A DNA stretch of 5,704 nucleotides, from NCBI GenBank assembly GCA_946482625.1, contig CAMLSH010000271.1:1-5704 (forward strand), given 5' to 3'. Of the stretch, positions 1 to 5,704 are shown piece by piece. This DNA is from an uncultured Opitutaceae bacterium (GTDB lineage: Bacteria; Verrucomicrobiota; Verrucomicrobiae; Opitutales; Opitutaceae). Made by a program: the position numbers and the translations under genes. How positions within the stretch are numbered: the first letter of the stretch is position 1; every line of letters starts with the position of its first letter. The notes under the pieces were generated by a model. That model was not told the origin of the DNA. It worked only from the letters and a program-made list of their open reading frames with translations, and ran no database searches.

Positions 1-1165
1 GACCGGCAAAGAAGAGGTTCTCGACCTTTCGTGACTCCAAAGACGGAAAAAGCTGCGTGGGCGGCGCGTAATCGTATTCGACCGCGTAGGCCGGTCTCAA
101 CAGCACGGCATTTTGAAGCCCGGGCACGCTATGCACCATATCAAGCTGTACCTCGAACGGCAGCGACGTCGAGAGCCCGTTAACGTAATACTCGTTGGTC
201 GTGCGCCCCTCAGGCTCAAGAAATAGCAAGTGGCGGGGTTTGTCCGCGAAGCGGACAAACTTGTCTTCAATACTCGGGCAATAACGCGGACCGACGCCCT
301 CGATCTCTCCGGAGTACATGGCGGAACGATGCAGGTTTTCCCTAACCAAGCGCGCGGTTTCCGAAGTGGTGTACGTCATCCAACACGAGACTTGGGCCGA
401 GCCGGGCTGCCAGCCGAGTCGATGCTCGCCGGTTTGTTCCACGTGGAACAGATCCTCGGCGCCTCGCGTGTCATGAAAAGCCAACAGGGTAGGGGTCGCG
501 TCGCCTTTCTGCTCATCCATCTGCCGGAAATCCAAGCTGCGGCCCAAGAGGCGGGGAGGGGTGCCAGTTTTTAGCCGCTGCAGCTCAATACCTGCCGCGA
601 GAAAGCTCGCCGAGAGGGTCTTCGCACTGAAATCCCCCAAGCGTCCGCCTTCATTTTTGTTTTGGCCGATATGCATCAAGCCACGGAGAAACGTGCCGGT
701 CGTCACCACCACAGTCTGTGCGGAAAACTCGATATCAAGGTTGGTGCGTACGCCTGTGACTTTTTGGCCGGTGTAGACGAGACCGGTCACGGTCGCTTGG
801 AACACTTGGAGATTCGGCTGCAACTCCAACGTATGCTTTAAGCGAAACTGGTACGCCTTCTTATCGCATTGCACGCGGGGAGATTGAACCGCCGGCCCTT
901 TCGACTCGTTGAGCAATCGAAACTGGATGCCTGTGACGTCGGTGTTAATAGCCATTTCCCCGCCGAGGGCGTCGATTTCCCGGACCATTTGCCCCTTCGC
1001 CTGACCACCGATTGCCGGGTTGCAACTCATCTGGGCAATCGTGTCGATATTGCCCGTCAAAAGTAGGGTATTGGCGCCCATTCGGGACGCCGCCAATGCC
1101 GCCTCGCAGCCCGCATGGCCCGCGCCGCACACAATCACATCAAAGGGTATCTTATTGTAAATCAT
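1..1165 (-). CDS. mnmG: MnmG (GidA), tRNA U34 carboxymethylaminomethyl synthesis FAD subunit, C-terminus cut off
   Basis: MnmG is the FAD-binding partner of MnmE; the cytoplasmic complex installs the (carboxymethyl)aminomethyl group at C5 of wobble uridine 34 in certain tRNAs. The minus-strand frame is open from ATG at 1165 to the window edge, giving 388 complete codons, so roughly the last 230-240 residues of a usual 620-630 are missing. Visible landmarks are the N-terminal FAD motif GAGHAGCEAA (residues 14-23), MSCNPAIGG with Cys48, GTFLRG, RLKTGTPPR (197-205) and GPRYCPSIEDK with Cys296. Cys48 and Cys296 match the two functionally important cysteines of E. coli MnmG (Cys47 and Cys277, from memory). 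The fragment stops at FFAG, just before the conserved GTTGYEEAA-type segment. It follows mnmE on the same strand after about 150 bases. No Shine-Dalgarno sequence precedes the ATG, but the family's N-terminus begins here. No frameshift was seen. Confidence 0.97.
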   Translation of the reverse strand, partial: MIYNKIPFDVIVCGAGHAGCEAALAASRMGANTLLLTGNIDTIAQMSCNPAIGGQAKGQMVREIDALGGEMAINTDVTGIQFRLLNESKGPAVQSPRVQCDKKAYQFRLKHTLELQPNLQVFQATVTGLVYTGQKVTGVRTNLDIEFSAQTVVVTTGTFLRGLMHIGQNKNEGGRLGDFSAKTLSASFLAAGIELQRLKTGTPPRLLGRSLDFRQMDEQKGDATPTLLAFHDTRGAEDLFHVEQTGEHRLGWQPGSAQVSCWMTYTTSETARLVRENLHRSAMYSGEIEGVGPRYCPSIEDKFVRFADKPRHLLFLEPEGRTTNEYYVNGLSTSLPFEVQLDMVHSVPGLQNAVLLRPAYAVEYDYAPPTQLFPSLESRKVENLFFAG

Positions 1166-1315: not shown

Positions 1316-2671
1316 CTACTTCCCAATGCAGAACGCCGCAAAGAGGTGATCGAGCATTCGCTCGTTATCGATCTTCCCCCCGATCTCGCCCACGGCGTCG
1401 AGCGCCCCACGCAGATCGCTCGCCAATAACTCAACCGGCCCATGCGCGCCCACATTCGAGAGCGCCGACGCCAGACATTCACGAGCACGCGTCAACGCGG
1501 ACGCATGTCGCGCATTGATCGCGATGATCTCGGCACCGCTATCGCGTCGAAACACTTCCGCACGACGCTCCACGGCGGCTACCAGCGCGTTCAAACCTTC
1601 TCCTGTGAGGGCAGAAACACGGACAATCTCTTTGCCATCAACTGCTTGAGGCGAAAGTAGCTCCGCGCCCAAGTCGATCTTGTTAAAAACCACCACGGCG
1701 TTTTCCGCCGACAACAGCGCCGTCAGCTCCTCCGGCAGCGCGGGATGGGGACGCGAGGCGTCGAGCACCAATAAAAAGAGGTCAGCCTCTGCGGCCCGCT
1801 CCAAGGTTTTGGCCATCCCGAGTTTTTCGAGCGGGGCAGGGGAGGGATTGAGTCCTGCTGTATCGATTAACCGGAGACAATGCGGCCCGATTATCACGCG
1901 TTCCTCGATAAAGTCCCGCGTCGTGCCCGGCTCCGGACTTACCAGCGCGCGCTCCCGTCCCAACAGACGGTTCAGCAGCGAGCTTTTCCCCGCGTTCGGT
2001 TCGCCCACGATCACGGTCTTGATGCCATCGCGCAGCAACTCCCCGTAGTGTTGCGTCGCCAGCAACCGTTCCGTCCCCGCCGTCACCCGCTCGACGCCCT
2101 GACGCACAAGGCCGCGATCTTCGGCCGGCAAATCCTCGTCGGGAAAATCTATATACGCCTCCACCCGTGCGAGCACGCCGAGCAAGTCGTCCGTGAGCGC
2201 CGTCAGGTGCCGCCCAAGACTTCCACGCAATTGCTGATTCGCCGCCGCTAGCGCACGCTCGCTGCGCGCGTGGATCAGATCCATCACCGCCTCGGCCTGA
2301 CTGAGATCGATCCGGCCGTTTAGAAAAGCCCGGCGGGTAAACTCCCCCGCCTCCGCCGGTCGACATCCGCGCGCGAGCAGATCTTCAAGGATCTTTTGCG
2401 CAATGAACGGATTCCCGTGAGAGGAAATTTCCAACGTATCCTCGCCGGTGTACGATTTCGGCCCCGAGAAAAACGTCACGACCACATCGTCGAGAACCGC
2501 GCCCAAGCGATCGCAGTAATCCGCGTGGTGCGCAAAGCGGGGTGGGGGAGTCGTTCCGAAAATCGCCCGCGCCAGCTCTGCGCAGTCGGGTCCGCTCGCT
2601 CGTACAACCGCGATGGCGGAAGTGCCGGCAGGCGTTGCGAGAGCGGCGATCGTATCGATAGACAGGGCCAT
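1316..2671 (-). CDS. mnmE: MnmE (TrmE), tRNA modification GTPase
   Basis: MnmE is a GTPase that binds a formyl-folate cofactor and, with MnmG, modifies C5 of tRNA wobble uridine 34. The product is 451 residues, the usual length. It has the N-terminal folate-binding domain opening with DTIAALATPAG, the helical domain (AGEFTRRAFLNGR, YIDFPDEDLP), and an inserted G domain: P-loop GEPNAGKSS (223-231), PGTTRD (248-253), DTAGL (270-274) and NKID (330-333). It ends in the family's diagnostic CIGK, whose Cys is essential for modification. All key residues are present. I chose ATG at 2671, giving MALSIDTIAALATP, because it fits the family N-terminus; an in-frame TTG at 2680 would add three residues. 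Neither start has a well-spaced Shine-Dalgarno sequence. mnmG lies downstream on the same strand. Confidence 0.97.
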   Translation of the reverse strand: MALSIDTIAALATPAGTSAIAVVRASGPDCAELARAIFGTTPPPRFAHHADYCDRLGAVLDDVVVTFFSGPKSYTGEDTLEISSHGNPFIAQKILEDLLARGCRPAEAGEFTRRAFLNGRIDLSQAEAVMDLIHARSERALAAANQQLRGSLGRHLTALTDDLLGVLARVEAYIDFPDEDLPAEDRGLVRQGVERVTAGTERLLATQHYGELLRDGIKTVIVGEPNAGKSSLLNRLLGRERALVSPEPGTTRDFIEERVIIGPHCLRLIDTAGLNPSPAPLEKLGMAKTLERAAEADLFLLVLDASRPHPALPEELTALLSAENAVVVFNKIDLGAELLSPQAVDGKEIVRVSALTGEGLNALVAAVERRAEVFRRDSGAEIIAINARHASALTRARECLASALSNVGAHGPVELLASDLRGALDAVGEIGGKIDNERMLDHLFAAFCIGK

Positions 2672-3634
2672 TTCCGTCAACCAAAGCCGTCGCCGCTAAA
2701 AAGAAAAGGCCTCAGCGAATGCACTTCAGCAATTCGCATTCGCCCTGCGTCTGTCTTCCGCCTGCGGAGACACTTGCCCGCCGGCGTGAGACAAGATGCC
2801 TGCTGCCTGCCACGCGCTTCTGGCGCCACCAGCTTTTTAGAAGGGGTCCATTTAAGATAAACCTGTGCACGACAATCATCGCCACACGACCGCACTGCGC
2901 TGACGCCGCGAGCGCGCTCATCAGCCGGCCATGCTCGATGGGCGCGGCCCACCGTTTCGATGTACGACCCACGGCCGATCTGTCGCGCTCCTCGATCTCC
3001 GTAGTAAATACGCGAATACGGTAGCCGGTTGCGCATCGCGGCACAGCAATACTCCACCACCAGCACCGCGCAAAAAACCAACGAGCGCGCGGCGCCGCTC
3101 GACCGAGAAAACAGAACCGTCAGGTCCGAAAATCCCCCGCTCCCGTTTTCCCGCGCGCTCCCACCCGCCGCCAGAGGCCTGCCACGTCGTTTCGCGCCCC
3201 TCGATTCGAAAGTAATACTTCCGATGCTTTTTGCAGGATCGTCGAGTCACCTCATCGCTGCGCTCGTGTCGCCAAACTCGCAACTTCCTCGCCCCGAAAA
3301 GGATCGTCGCTCGCGCCACACGCGCGTGCTCCCCTGACTCCCGTCATACGGGCACTACGACTCTACGTCTTAGTCTTTCCACAATCATCCGGTCGACATG
3401 CTAAACGGCGCACGTCCGCCGCGTTTTCAAAAACGTCTTCGGCCAAATTTACCTCTAGGTAGCGTTACAATTTTGAACTGTTCAGTGGGCAGCGGGCAAT
3501 CCGCCTGCTACGATAAGTGTGCGGGCTGAGCCGTCGCGGATGAAATGAAATTACCGAGAACGAACACACGGGTTTTTTGCGACCACACCGACTAAACCGG
3601 TTGTTCGTGCGATCGAGCCAGTCCGGTACATACC
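2672..3634. other. intergenic region of about 960 bases without a supported gene
   Basis: This stretch lies between the divergent starts of mnmE and the rpfF-like gene. Several frames stay open for 90-135 codons, but they overlap on both strands, mostly begin at GTG or TTG, are rich in Arg, Cys and Ser, and match no family I know, as expected for stop-poor GC-rich DNA. The part after about 3340 is visibly less GC-rich. It contains a dyad TACCT/AGGTA (3450-3461) next to TTACAAT (3465-3471), a bulged 7-bp hairpin (3489-3508), an ACGAACA/TGTTCGT inverted repeat (3560-3566 and 3602-3608) and the palindrome AACCGGTT (3595-3602). These could belong to the control region of the rpfF-like gene, but none is convincing alone. 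I found no tRNA or known riboswitch pattern. Confidence 0.6.
2698..2743 (-). terminator. hairpin with U-rich tail upstream of mnmE (terminator or attenuator candidate)
   Basis: Read on the minus strand, a perfect 8-bp inverted repeat (GCGAATGC at 2743-2736 and GCATTCGC at 2722-2715) encloses a 13-base loop. A T-rich run, TTTTCTTTTT (2707-2698), follows after a 7-base gap. The T-run ends 26 bases before the mnmE ATG. The arrangement resembles an intrinsic terminator, but the gap between stem and T-run is longer than ideal. If real, it either ends a minus-strand transcript arriving from the gene-poor region or attenuates mnmE itself. Confidence 0.4.
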
Positions 3635-4492
3635 ATGCACGCAATCATCAGCCTGGCTGAAAATCAAAACGACGTGGTGCTCCAAACGGAGTCACTGACC
3701 GCCCGATACGACGAATCCACCCGCACGCTCTGGAACTACCTGCACGCTTCGCCGCGCCCTTGTTTCACCGAAGCACTGCTCTCGGATGCGCATCAACTGC
3801 ACACCCTGATCCGCACCGGCGAAATCCCCGTGGACTTCTACGTGGCGGCTTCAGAGGTGCCGAAGGTCTTCAACCTCGGCGGCGATCTCTCGCTCTTCCG
3901 ACAGTGCGCCCAAGAACGCGACTGGGATCGACTCACCGATTACGCCGAACGCTGCATTGAAGTCCTCCACGACCTCGTATCCGGTTTTAACCAACAGGTG
4001 ATCAGCATAGCGCTCATTCAGGGCGACGCCCTTGGCGGAGGCTTCGAATCCGCCCTCGGCGCCGACTTCATGATCGCCGAACAGCAGGCGAAAATGGGTT
4101 TCCCTGAAGTGCTCTTCAATCTGTTCCCAGGTATGGGTGCGTACAGCTTGCTCGCCCGCAAACTCGGGCCACAGCCCGCGCAACGCATGATCCTCAGTGG
4201 CGAGATGTTCACGGCCACCGATCTCCACGCCAAGGGCCTCCTCGACCAGCTCGCGCCACCGGGCGAGGGCGAAAAAGCCGTCCGCGACTTCATTCGCGAC
4301 ACCCGGAAACATCTGCACGGATACAAATCCTTTCTCGACGCCCGCCGCCGCAGCAGCCTCTGGACTGGCCGCGAAGAACTGCTCGCGATCGTCCACGACT
4401 GGGTGAAAAGCGTGAAGCAGATTTCCGAGCGCGACCTCCGTCTGATGGACCGGCTCGTGACTGCACAGAATCGTTTGAAGCTGGCGGCTTGA
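3635..4492 (+). CDS. rpfF: RpfF-like crotonase-fold enzyme, probable DSF-family signal synthase
   Basis: The 285-residue product matches Xanthomonas RpfF in length (about 289) and key motifs. RpfF is a cytoplasmic crotonase-superfamily enzyme that dehydrates 3-hydroxyacyl-ACP and cleaves the thioester, releasing cis-2-unsaturated fatty acid signals (DSF, BDSF). Shared blocks are VFNLGGDLSLF (78-88, oxyanion-hole region), IALIQGDALGGGFESAL (125-141), GFPEVLFNLFPGMGAYS (155-171) and, near the C-terminus, LRLMDRLVTAQ (268-278). Glu138 and Glu158 keep the 20-residue spacing of the RpfF catalytic pair Glu141/Glu161. Met167 and Trp256 align with acyl-pocket residues Met170 and Trp258 of RpfF (from memory). 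Ordinary enoyl-CoA hydratases share the two glutamates but not the FNLGGDL, FPGMGAYS and C-terminal blocks. ATG 3635 fits the family length but has no Shine-Dalgarno sequence. The gene stands alone: divergent from mnmE, with a hairpin after its stop. The product's chain length cannot be predicted. The main alternative is an RpfF-related hydratase with a metabolic role. Confidence 0.88.
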   Translation: MHAIISLAENQNDVVLQTESLTARYDESTRTLWNYLHASPRPCFTEALLSDAHQLHTLIRTGEIPVDFYVAASEVPKVFNLGGDLSLFRQCAQERDWDRLTDYAERCIEVLHDLVSGFNQQVISIALIQGDALGGGFESALGADFMIAEQQAKMGFPEVLFNLFPGMGAYSLLARKLGPQPAQRMILSGEMFTATDLHAKGLLDQLAPPGEGEKAVRDFIRDTRKHLHGYKSFLDARRRSSLWTGREELLAIVHDWVKSVKQISERDLRLMDRLVTAQNRLKLAA

Positions 4493-4499
4493 GGTGGCG

Positions 4500-4556
4500 G
4501 GACGACGACCGCCCCCCAAGCAATCGAACCCCGGTGCTTTGGCGGCGGTCGCGTCC
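4500..4556 (+). terminator. long hairpin after the rpfF-like gene
   Basis: Starting eight bases after the TGA stop, 4506-4522 pairs with 4535-4551 (15 of 17 positions) around a 12-base loop. After a bulged A at 4505 the stem continues with five more pairs (4500-4504 with 4552-4556). Some 20 pairs in total make a very stable structure in the right place to end the transcript or protect its 3' end. It lacks a following T-run, so it is not a classic intrinsic terminator. Confidence 0.6.
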
Positions 4557-4557
4557 A

Positions 4558-4563
4558 TATAAT
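4558..4563 (+). promoter_or_regulatory. consensus -10 box for the secreted-protein gene
   Basis: A perfect TATAAT lies 57 bases before the ATG at 4621, implying transcription from about 4570 and a leader of about 50 bases. The -35 position, 17 bases upstream (4535-4540), reads TGCTTT, a poor match. It falls within the right arm of the preceding hairpin. The match and placement in GC-rich DNA favour a real promoter, but the weak -35 leaves doubt. Confidence 0.45.
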
Positions 4564-4620
4564 ACTGCGCGATACCCGCGCACTTTTCCCGTGGCGAACG
4601 GTCCGACAAAGCCCTTATTC

Positions 4621-5704
4621 ATGCGCTTCATGGACCCACGCCTTCTGGTTCGTCGTCTCAAACTCGCCGTCGCGGCCGCCTGCCTGCCCACCGCCGCGCT
4701 CGCTCAAACCGGCACTCCGCCAGAAGAACCTCCGCTGCACGCCGTCCGACGCGAGCTCTCGCCCGACGCGCTTTTCTACACGTACATAGACTTCGAAGGT
4801 GGCTGGGGCCAGGTCGGTCGCGAACTTTCAAATACGCTCCAGGACAGCTCGCTTTCCGATAAGCCGCTCGATCTCCCCGGCGCTTTTGACGCCCTAGGCC
4901 TCTCGCAGATCCGTGCTATTGGCCTGAGCTCCGACGCCGTCACCGGCGGCTACGACAATCGCTTTTTCCTCTACACACCCAGCGGACGCGCCGGAGTGTT
5001 CTCCATTTTCCCGGGCAAGCCCGAGGCATTCCATGCCGCTCAATTCGCTCCCGCCGACGCCGACTTCGTCATCGACCTCCGTCTGGACGTGCCAGCACTC
5101 GTCAAAACCATCGAGTCGGTGGTCTTGAAATTCTCCGATAAGAAAGACGCCGCCGGAGAACTGCTCAACATCCTCACCGAAGCCCAAGGCAAAGGCTTGG
5201 CCGATCTGGTCACATACCAAGGTCGCGCCATCGTCATCGTCCGCATGCTCGCGCAGGAGCAGATCGAGAAAAACGCCGCCGAGTTCTCCTCCAAGCTTCC
5301 CGCTGACTTTTTCGCGCGCATCGAAACCGGCGGCAAAGCCATCGCCAAAACGCTCGCCGCCGATGCCAACTGGCTCAGCGAAGAAAAAAATGGTCGCACC
5401 TATTTCACGCGCAAACCCGCGGACGATATGCCTCCCGAGGACTTCGCGATCATTCTCGAAGGCGACAGCATCGCGATCGCCACGACACCGTTTGCCGAAG
5501 AATGCCTCGCGAAAAATGGTGGTCTAGCCGCCGAGCCCGCGTACCGACATGCGCTCACCGATTCCGCCGCCGAAGGCCACGTGCTGCTCTATATGACACC
5601 GACGTTTTTCACGTCGGTGCGCGACGCGTCCAAATGGATTCTCCTCACAAGCAACGCGCTCGGCCGTCGCTCGTTTCAAGAAACGATGATCGCCAACCAG
5701 CTCA
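4621..5704 (+). CDS. secreted protein of unknown function, C-terminus cut off
   Basis: An open frame runs from ATG 4621 to the window edge, giving 361 codons. The N-terminus is a clear Sec signal peptide: a basic stretch (RLLVRRLK, residues 7-14), a hydrophobic core (15-27) and an Ala-Leu-Ala cleavage site after residue 28, so export is expected. Cys21 is not in a proper lipobox. After a Pro/Glu-rich linker the protein has segments such as LSPDALFYTYIDFEG (46-60), a glycine-rich IGLSSDAVTGG (100-110), FPGKPEAFHAAQFAPADADF and GKGLADLV. This resembles large uncharacterised exported proteins of Verrucomicrobiota and Planctomycetota, loosely like DUF3352 proteins, but I cannot name a family. I see no catalytic motif and no transmembrane segment after the signal peptide. 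ATG 4630 is an alternative start, and the frame is open further upstream, with a GTG at 4591. Neither ATG has a Shine-Dalgarno sequence. It is probably transcribed from the TATAAT box upstream and separately from the rpfF-like gene. Confidence 0.85.
   Translation, partial: MRFMDPRLLVRRLKLAVAAACLPTAALAQTGTPPEEPPLHAVRRELSPDALFYTYIDFEGGWGQVGRELSNTLQDSSLSDKPLDLPGAFDALGLSQIRAIGLSSDAVTGGYDNRFFLYTPSGRAGVFSIFPGKPEAFHAAQFAPADADFVIDLRLDVPALVKTIESVVLKFSDKKDAAGELLNILTEAQGKGLADLVTYQGRAIVIVRMLAQEQIEKNAAEFSSKLPADFFARIETGGKAIAKTLAADANWLSEEKNGRTYFTRKPADDMPPEDFAIILEGDSIAIATTPFAEECLAKNGGLAAEPAYRHALTDSAAEGHVLLYMTPTFFTSVRDASKWILLTSNALGRRSFQETMIANQL

Follow-up and report, generated by a model that had tools for sequence, protein, structure and literature searches.

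A full-length RpfF-family gene, probably encoding a DSF synthase, in an Opitutaceae bacterium

Introduction

RpfF enzymes, synthases of diffusible signal factor (DSF), dehydrate 3-hydroxyacyl-acyl carrier protein (ACP) to cis-2-enoyl-ACP, which is hydrolysed next (PMC4504480; all papers given by PMC number are cited from excerpts). DspI of Pseudomonas aeruginosa is linked to cis-2-decenoic acid (PMC5834635). For Leptospirillum (Nitrospirota), an rpf cluster has been described and compounds of the DSF family reported in cultures (PMC8357829). DSF outside Proteobacteria has thus been reported before, and an earlier note on the DNA studied here, which treated DSF signalling as a proteobacterial matter, drew the boundary too narrowly. 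Here we describe a further member of the family, encoded by an rpfF-like gene in a 5,704-bp stretch (‘the window’) of contig CAMLSH010000271.1. With a probability of roughly 0.8, this gene codes for a genuine DSF synthase of RpfF type in an Opitutaceae bacterium, a reading based on family membership, the clade, the taxonomic setting, the predicted fold and the residues of active site and pocket. Literature searches, some of them aimed at Verrucomicrobiota or its genera, turned up no account of a DSF synthase from that phylum (openly licensed papers, most matches being seen as listings); the excerpt of PMC12950752 names Verrucomicrobia once, as part of a community.

Results

Family assignment and phylogeny

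The gene and its two catalytic codons (located by column alignment and counted from the start of the open reading frame, ORF) are as follows; Xcc is Xanthomonas campestris pv. campestris.

3635..4492, plus strand: rpfF-like gene, putative crotonase-superfamily DSF synthase, 285 aa, ATG start, full-length (ORF, profile, PDB, fold and tree)
4046..4048, plus strand: codon of Glu138 (Glu141 of Xcc RpfF), first catalytic glutamate
4106..4108, plus strand: codon of Glu158 (Glu161 of Xcc RpfF), second catalytic glutamate

The product is a full-length member of the RpfF (DSF synthase) family, as the earlier note had proposed. NCBIfam PRK08788 (NF006452) matches it at 347.5 bits (cut-off 177; E = 4.9e-104), while no protein of 14 control genomes exceeds that cut-off (0/14), and the best PDB sequence matches are RpfF/DfsA chains (E = 1.2e-61 to an RpfF chain). 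Several relatives are already labelled ‘DSF synthase’ by automatic annotation. Identity is 41.4% to the 6dgn chain and 41.5% to the Xcc RpfF chain; since these two share 38.3%, the window protein falls, by sequence identity, within the range covered by the DSF synthases that have been characterised structurally.

Trees were built from 113 hand-picked rows (29 window-clade, 71 other RpfF and 13 hydratase; P0030, a fragment of 197 aa at 63%, was excluded), from 101 rows (FastTree) and from 48 rows, the last with an approximately unbiased (AU) test. RpfF rows (n = 100) are split from the 13 hydratase rows at 100/99 in the 113-row tree, and the same split has 100/100 in the 48-row tree; in neither does the window protein group with metabolic hydratases, the outcome that the earlier note had named as grounds for giving up its assignment. 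The window clade forms a single group of 29 rows (99/89, 113 rows), and a node uniting it with the Methyloversatilis group and Burkholderia RpfF is found at 100/98 (113 rows), 99/98 (48 rows) and local support 84 (101 rows). In the best trees the clade looks nested in Proteobacteria, but firm nesting was dropped because forcing all 35 other RpfF rows of the 48-row tree into one clade costs 0.65 log units (p-AU 0.444) and is not rejected. As to direction of transfer and age, the clade may have been acquired from Proteobacteria or have branched early, near the RpfF base, the AU test rejecting neither. The RpfF root is uncertain because the branch leading to the hydratases is long (3.5 changes per column). 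Fine placement is unsure as well: P0032 and the Burkholderia rows have long branches, and the program flagged long hydratase rows and, in the 113-row tree, eight rows of odd letter make-up. One ORF in the trees (L111, 418 aa) has an upstream start and exceeds the real gene.

Motifs, active site and predicted fold

All four blocks singled out in the earlier note are present: FNLGGDL (79-85), GGGFESAL (134-141), FPEVLFNLFPGMGAYS (156-171) and MDRLVTAQ (271-278). In this order, the 71 other RpfF-family rows have mean block matches of 0.93/0.85/0.90/0.68, against 0.45/0.71/0.40/0.10 for the 13 ordinary hydratase rows, so GGGFESAL (0.85 versus 0.71) is the least RpfF-specific.

Catalytic and pocket positions were mapped from the Xcc RpfF residues named in a review (PMC9864630), and 10/10 are identical in the window protein (column alignment); at residue level, the acyl-pocket comparison that the earlier note had suggested thus agrees with RpfF. 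The two glutamates and the oxyanion-hole glycines of Xcc RpfF (E141, E161, G85, G138) correspond to E138, E158, G82 and G135. The glutamate pair aligns with that of Xcc RpfF as the earlier note had said, but it is also found in 13/13 hydratase rows and is thus not specific to RpfF; the glycines are likewise common to hydratases. These four residues are thus a necessary but not a specific mark of the family. The pocket residues Met167 and Trp256 (Xcc Met170 and Trp258) do discriminate, each being present in 29/29 window-clade rows, 71/71 other RpfF rows and 2/13 hydratases. Gly86, a further named residue of Xcc RpfF (PMC9040811), lies opposite Gly83 in a pairwise alignment. In the complex with RpfR, a bound fatty acid would collide with Phe44 and Phe88 of Burkholderia RpfF (RpfFBc; PMC6361424), so these two residues border the tunnel; both positions are Phe in the window protein.

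A structure model of the protein (predicted local distance difference test, pLDDT, 92) fits RpfF/DfsA structures clearly better than any other hydratase listed, and the predicted fold includes the C-terminal helices of RpfF.

Host, orthologues and neighbouring genes

The window contains four genes, the other three being:

2..1165, minus strand: mnmG, truncated by the window end (TIGR00136, 510.9 bits over the part present, slightly below the cut-off of 524.85)
1316..2680, minus strand: mnmE (MnmE profile, 412.1 bits, cut-off 380; homologues), the context that gives the taxonomy
4621..5703, plus strand: gene without assigned function, truncated by the window end (ORF; ATG at 4621 picked by eye, listed ORF start 4489)

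Among 120 MnmE homologues listed, eight carry organism names: Nibricoccus sp. (84% and 74%), Rariglobus sp. (two), Ereboglobus sp. (two), Opitutaceae bacterium and Verrucomicrobia bacterium. Nibricoccus, Rariglobus and Ereboglobus belong to Opitutaceae (Verrucomicrobiota), and the nearest named homologue (Nibricoccus sp., 84%) places the window, as judged from this neighbour, in Opitutaceae near Nibricoccus, in agreement with the verrucomicrobial origin suggested earlier.

Nibricoccus aquaticus has an 83% orthologue (P0009) of the RpfF-like protein. Among the RpfF matches listed are ten others at 77-99% and a second tier (n = 17; 53-67%), presumably Opitutaceae-like; the full-length matches listed below this tier are at ≤49%, and a search begun from P0022 returns the same set. 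Three RpfF/MnmE homologue pairs (P0002/P0126, P0005/P0152, P0004/P0132) are on contigs of equal size (9209, 23707 and 246275, respectively), which makes it likely that the two genes lie together on three further contigs, as judged from size alone and not from their sequences. Clusters at ≥75% identity among the matches listed number 11 for RpfF and at least 46 for MnmE, a rough comparison of two cluster lists that suggests a patchy distribution of the rpfF-like gene. A scan of viral contigs returned no relative of the protein, and nothing verrucomicrobial-looking was found among relatives of G007 (59 genomes; 297 genomes), where the best MnmE identity listed was 48%.

The gap of ~950 bp between mnmE and the rpfF-like gene (2681-3634) contains six ORFs without Pfam match and no recognised gene, RNA (the only Rfam matches are far under cut-off and outside the gap) or tRNA, and no sigma-70-like promoter was found in 2600-4700. 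G+C content of the rpfF-like gene by codon position is 0.66/0.41/0.74, the third position being near that of its neighbours (0.69-0.72). Downstream and on the same strand, the product of the 4621..5703 gene has an N-terminus resembling a signal peptide (by eye); the part seen is matched by neither Pfam nor NCBIfam at E 0.001 and is not recognisable as a DSF receptor.

Partner genes in relatives

Neighbourhoods were surveyed in the best 80 of 532 rpfF loci, 69 of which extend ≥3 kb downstream. Going by record titles, none of the 80 is verrucomicrobial; they represent Proteobacteria, Nitrospirota, ‘Deltaproteobacteria’ and Deferrisomatales. In blastp comparisons with a small set of example proteins, with domains confirmed for some only, an RpfC-type hybrid kinase lies ≤1.5 kb from rpfF in 48/69 loci, an RpfG-type regulator ≤5 kb away in 37/69 and a GGDEF/EAL protein ≤5 kb away in 11/69. 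Partner genes beside rpfF in most of these loci support a role in DSF signalling for the RpfF family as a whole.

Several arrangements differ from the usual pattern. In eight of the 69 loci (L020, L047, L048, L055, L060, L067, L074 and L075), all labelled Alphaproteobacteria, the RpfC-type kinase beside rpfF is followed within 4 kb by a GGDEF/EAL protein and the locus has no RpfG-type match, possibly reflecting a swap of the output phosphodiesterase. A fatty acid desaturase gene (PF00487) lies directly downstream of rpfF on the same strand in two Leptospirillum-like Nitrospirota loci (L015:922-2073 and L017:7447-8508); its product might make doubly unsaturated signals. On Methylobacterium/Sphingomonas plasmids (L112:5835-8165 and L113:5832-7790) rpfF is convergent with an EAL-domain gene, an arrangement on secondary replicons that resembles that of Burkholderia. 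A crotonase with 34% identity to the window protein, over 91% of its length, is encoded in an E. coli plasmid record (NZ_CP060058.1:22283-23065).

Discussion

Synthesis of a cis-2-unsaturated fatty acid is the likely activity of the window protein, by analogy with characterised RpfF. The enzyme would draw on fatty acid synthesis for 3-hydroxyacyl-ACP (about C10-C14), Glu138 and Glu158 would dehydrate it to cis-2-enoyl-ACP, and thioester hydrolysis would then free the cis-2-unsaturated fatty acid, plus some ordinary free fatty acids. Both reactions, like the substrate, its chain length, the product and its release as a signal, are predicted from this analogy, and from the same likeness we infer a role in signalling.

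Several observations weigh against a DSF synthase. The fold and catalytic glutamates are common to ordinary hydratases, and the Phe88 position is Ile or Leu in 10/29 window-clade rows, which might alter chain preference in those proteins. None of rpfC, rpfG and rpfR was recognised among the four genes of the window (~1.2 kb downstream covered), so a receptor, if any, would be unlinked, of another type or just past the window; in the survey, all three partners are missing from the vicinity of rpfF in 19/69 loci. The protein also scores 216.6 bits with the RpfF equivalog NF053515, which requires 550.

The same holds for the other relatives scanned, 7/7 of which are above the PRK08788 cut-off and 7/7 below that of NF053515, including homologues from Burkholderia multivorans (408.9 and 180.6 bits with PRK08788 and NF053515, respectively; unannotated in its record, it groups with the 6dgn chain in the 113-row tree), Leptospirillum (380.2 and 253.7) and Methyloversatilis (340.2 and 221.6). 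NF053515 matches at E ≤1e-40 in 42/229 genomes sampled from one class and exceeds its cut-off in none (0/229). NF053515 therefore seems very narrow, in a comparison where no scanned sequence served as positive control by exceeding the cut-off; it is probably restricted to xanthomonad-type RpfF, with PRK08788 the model that seems to cover the family. The reading that a score below the NF053515 cut-off means ‘not RpfF’ was rejected, as the Burkholderia homologue is likewise below it.

An RpfF-fold acyl-ACP thioesterase/hydratase that serves lipid housekeeping, by releasing free fatty acids or adjusting the membrane, with signalling lost in Opitutaceae, is unlikely, although several findings point its way. 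RpfF is known to act broadly as a thioesterase (PMC4504480), and the visible window is without rpfC, rpfG and rpfR. Nine of the 19 partnerless loci make up the entire Methyloversatilis clade of the 101-row tree (9/9), close to the window clade. In four genomes of this clade, RpfC matches at E ≤1e-40 start at query residue ≥179 in 43/43 cases, versus 49/51 rpfF-adjacent kinases aligning from residue ≤150 (one being the query itself; blastp, not genome search), so the RpfC sensor region seems, from these alignments, to be absent from the four genomes. RpfR matches in the clade start at residue ≥117 (57/57), but a Methylobacterium control protein also fails to align in the region before it, so these start positions say nothing about a loss of RpfR. 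Against housekeeping, catalytic and pocket residues are kept 10/10, and at L046, near the Methyloversatilis clade, a weakly matching kinase (203 bits) lies 645 bp from rpfF. Receptors may also be unlinked: Leptospirillum rpfR candidates are outside the rpf cluster (PMC8357829).

That the protein is an ordinary catabolic enoyl-CoA hydratase merely resembling RpfF is very improbable: Pfam finds only ECH_1/ECH_2 and the source of P0009 names it enoyl-CoA hydratase, but the trees (100/99 and 100/100) refute this as a matter of family, the fold ranking favours RpfF/DfsA, and the RpfF-specific Met167 and Trp256 are present. Least credible is an rpfF contaminant or misassembly joined to an Opitutaceae fragment, given the three further contigs that appear, by size, to carry both genes, the 83% N. 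aquaticus orthologue and third-position G+C (0.74) close to that of the neighbours.

An extension of the DSF synthase reading, which we consider doubtful, is that Opitutaceae both make and use a DSF-family signal, sensed by a receptor other than RpfC and RpfR, and that their RpfF may be among the oldest branches, the latter part being permitted because basal placement is not rejected (p-AU 0.444). Surprise is limited, as enzyme family and chemistry are already known. If active, the enzyme extends DSF synthesis to Verrucomicrobiota, and N. aquaticus, with its 83% orthologue, offers a route to a direct test. With part of the RpfF family lacking standard receptors nearby, the question of who listens becomes testable.

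Comparison with known systems

Pseudomonas aeruginosa DspI (PDB 5wyb, 5wyd) shares the crotonase fold and Glu pair with the window protein. RpfF of Xanthomonas and Stenotrophomonas (PDB 3m6n, 3m6m, 7zq7) has 41% identity and matches at all ten mapped positions, but belongs to another subclade; the window protein scores far under the NF053515 cut-off, and xanthomonad rpfF is adjoined by rpfC and rpfG, and mostly rpfB (PMC4504480). Leptospirillum RpfF is, like the window protein, a DSF synthase family member outside Proteobacteria (L015, 43% identity over 277 columns); its cluster, unlike the window, holds rpfC and rpfG (PMC8357829), although the L015 fragment itself showed neither.

Proteins of the Methyloversatilis clade matching PRK08788 (L001-L005, L008, L009, L012 and L014) share a node with the window clade and likewise have no rpfC, rpfG or rpfR nearby (9/9), but are 43-47% identical to the window protein, have other neighbours and are labelled Proteobacteria. 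B. cenocepacia RpfF/DfsA (BCAM0581; PDB 5fus, 6dgn) differs in gene arrangement, being convergent with rpfR (PMC4504480), whereas the window gene has mnmE upstream and the 4621..5703 gene downstream. In the trees, Burkholderia RpfF is placed close to the window clade with weak support (97/71 in 113 rows; 90/53 in 48 rows), and the B. cenocepacia enzyme and the window protein have in common 41% identity (6dgn), the full-length fold, the catalytic glutamates and the tunnel residues Phe44 and Phe88.
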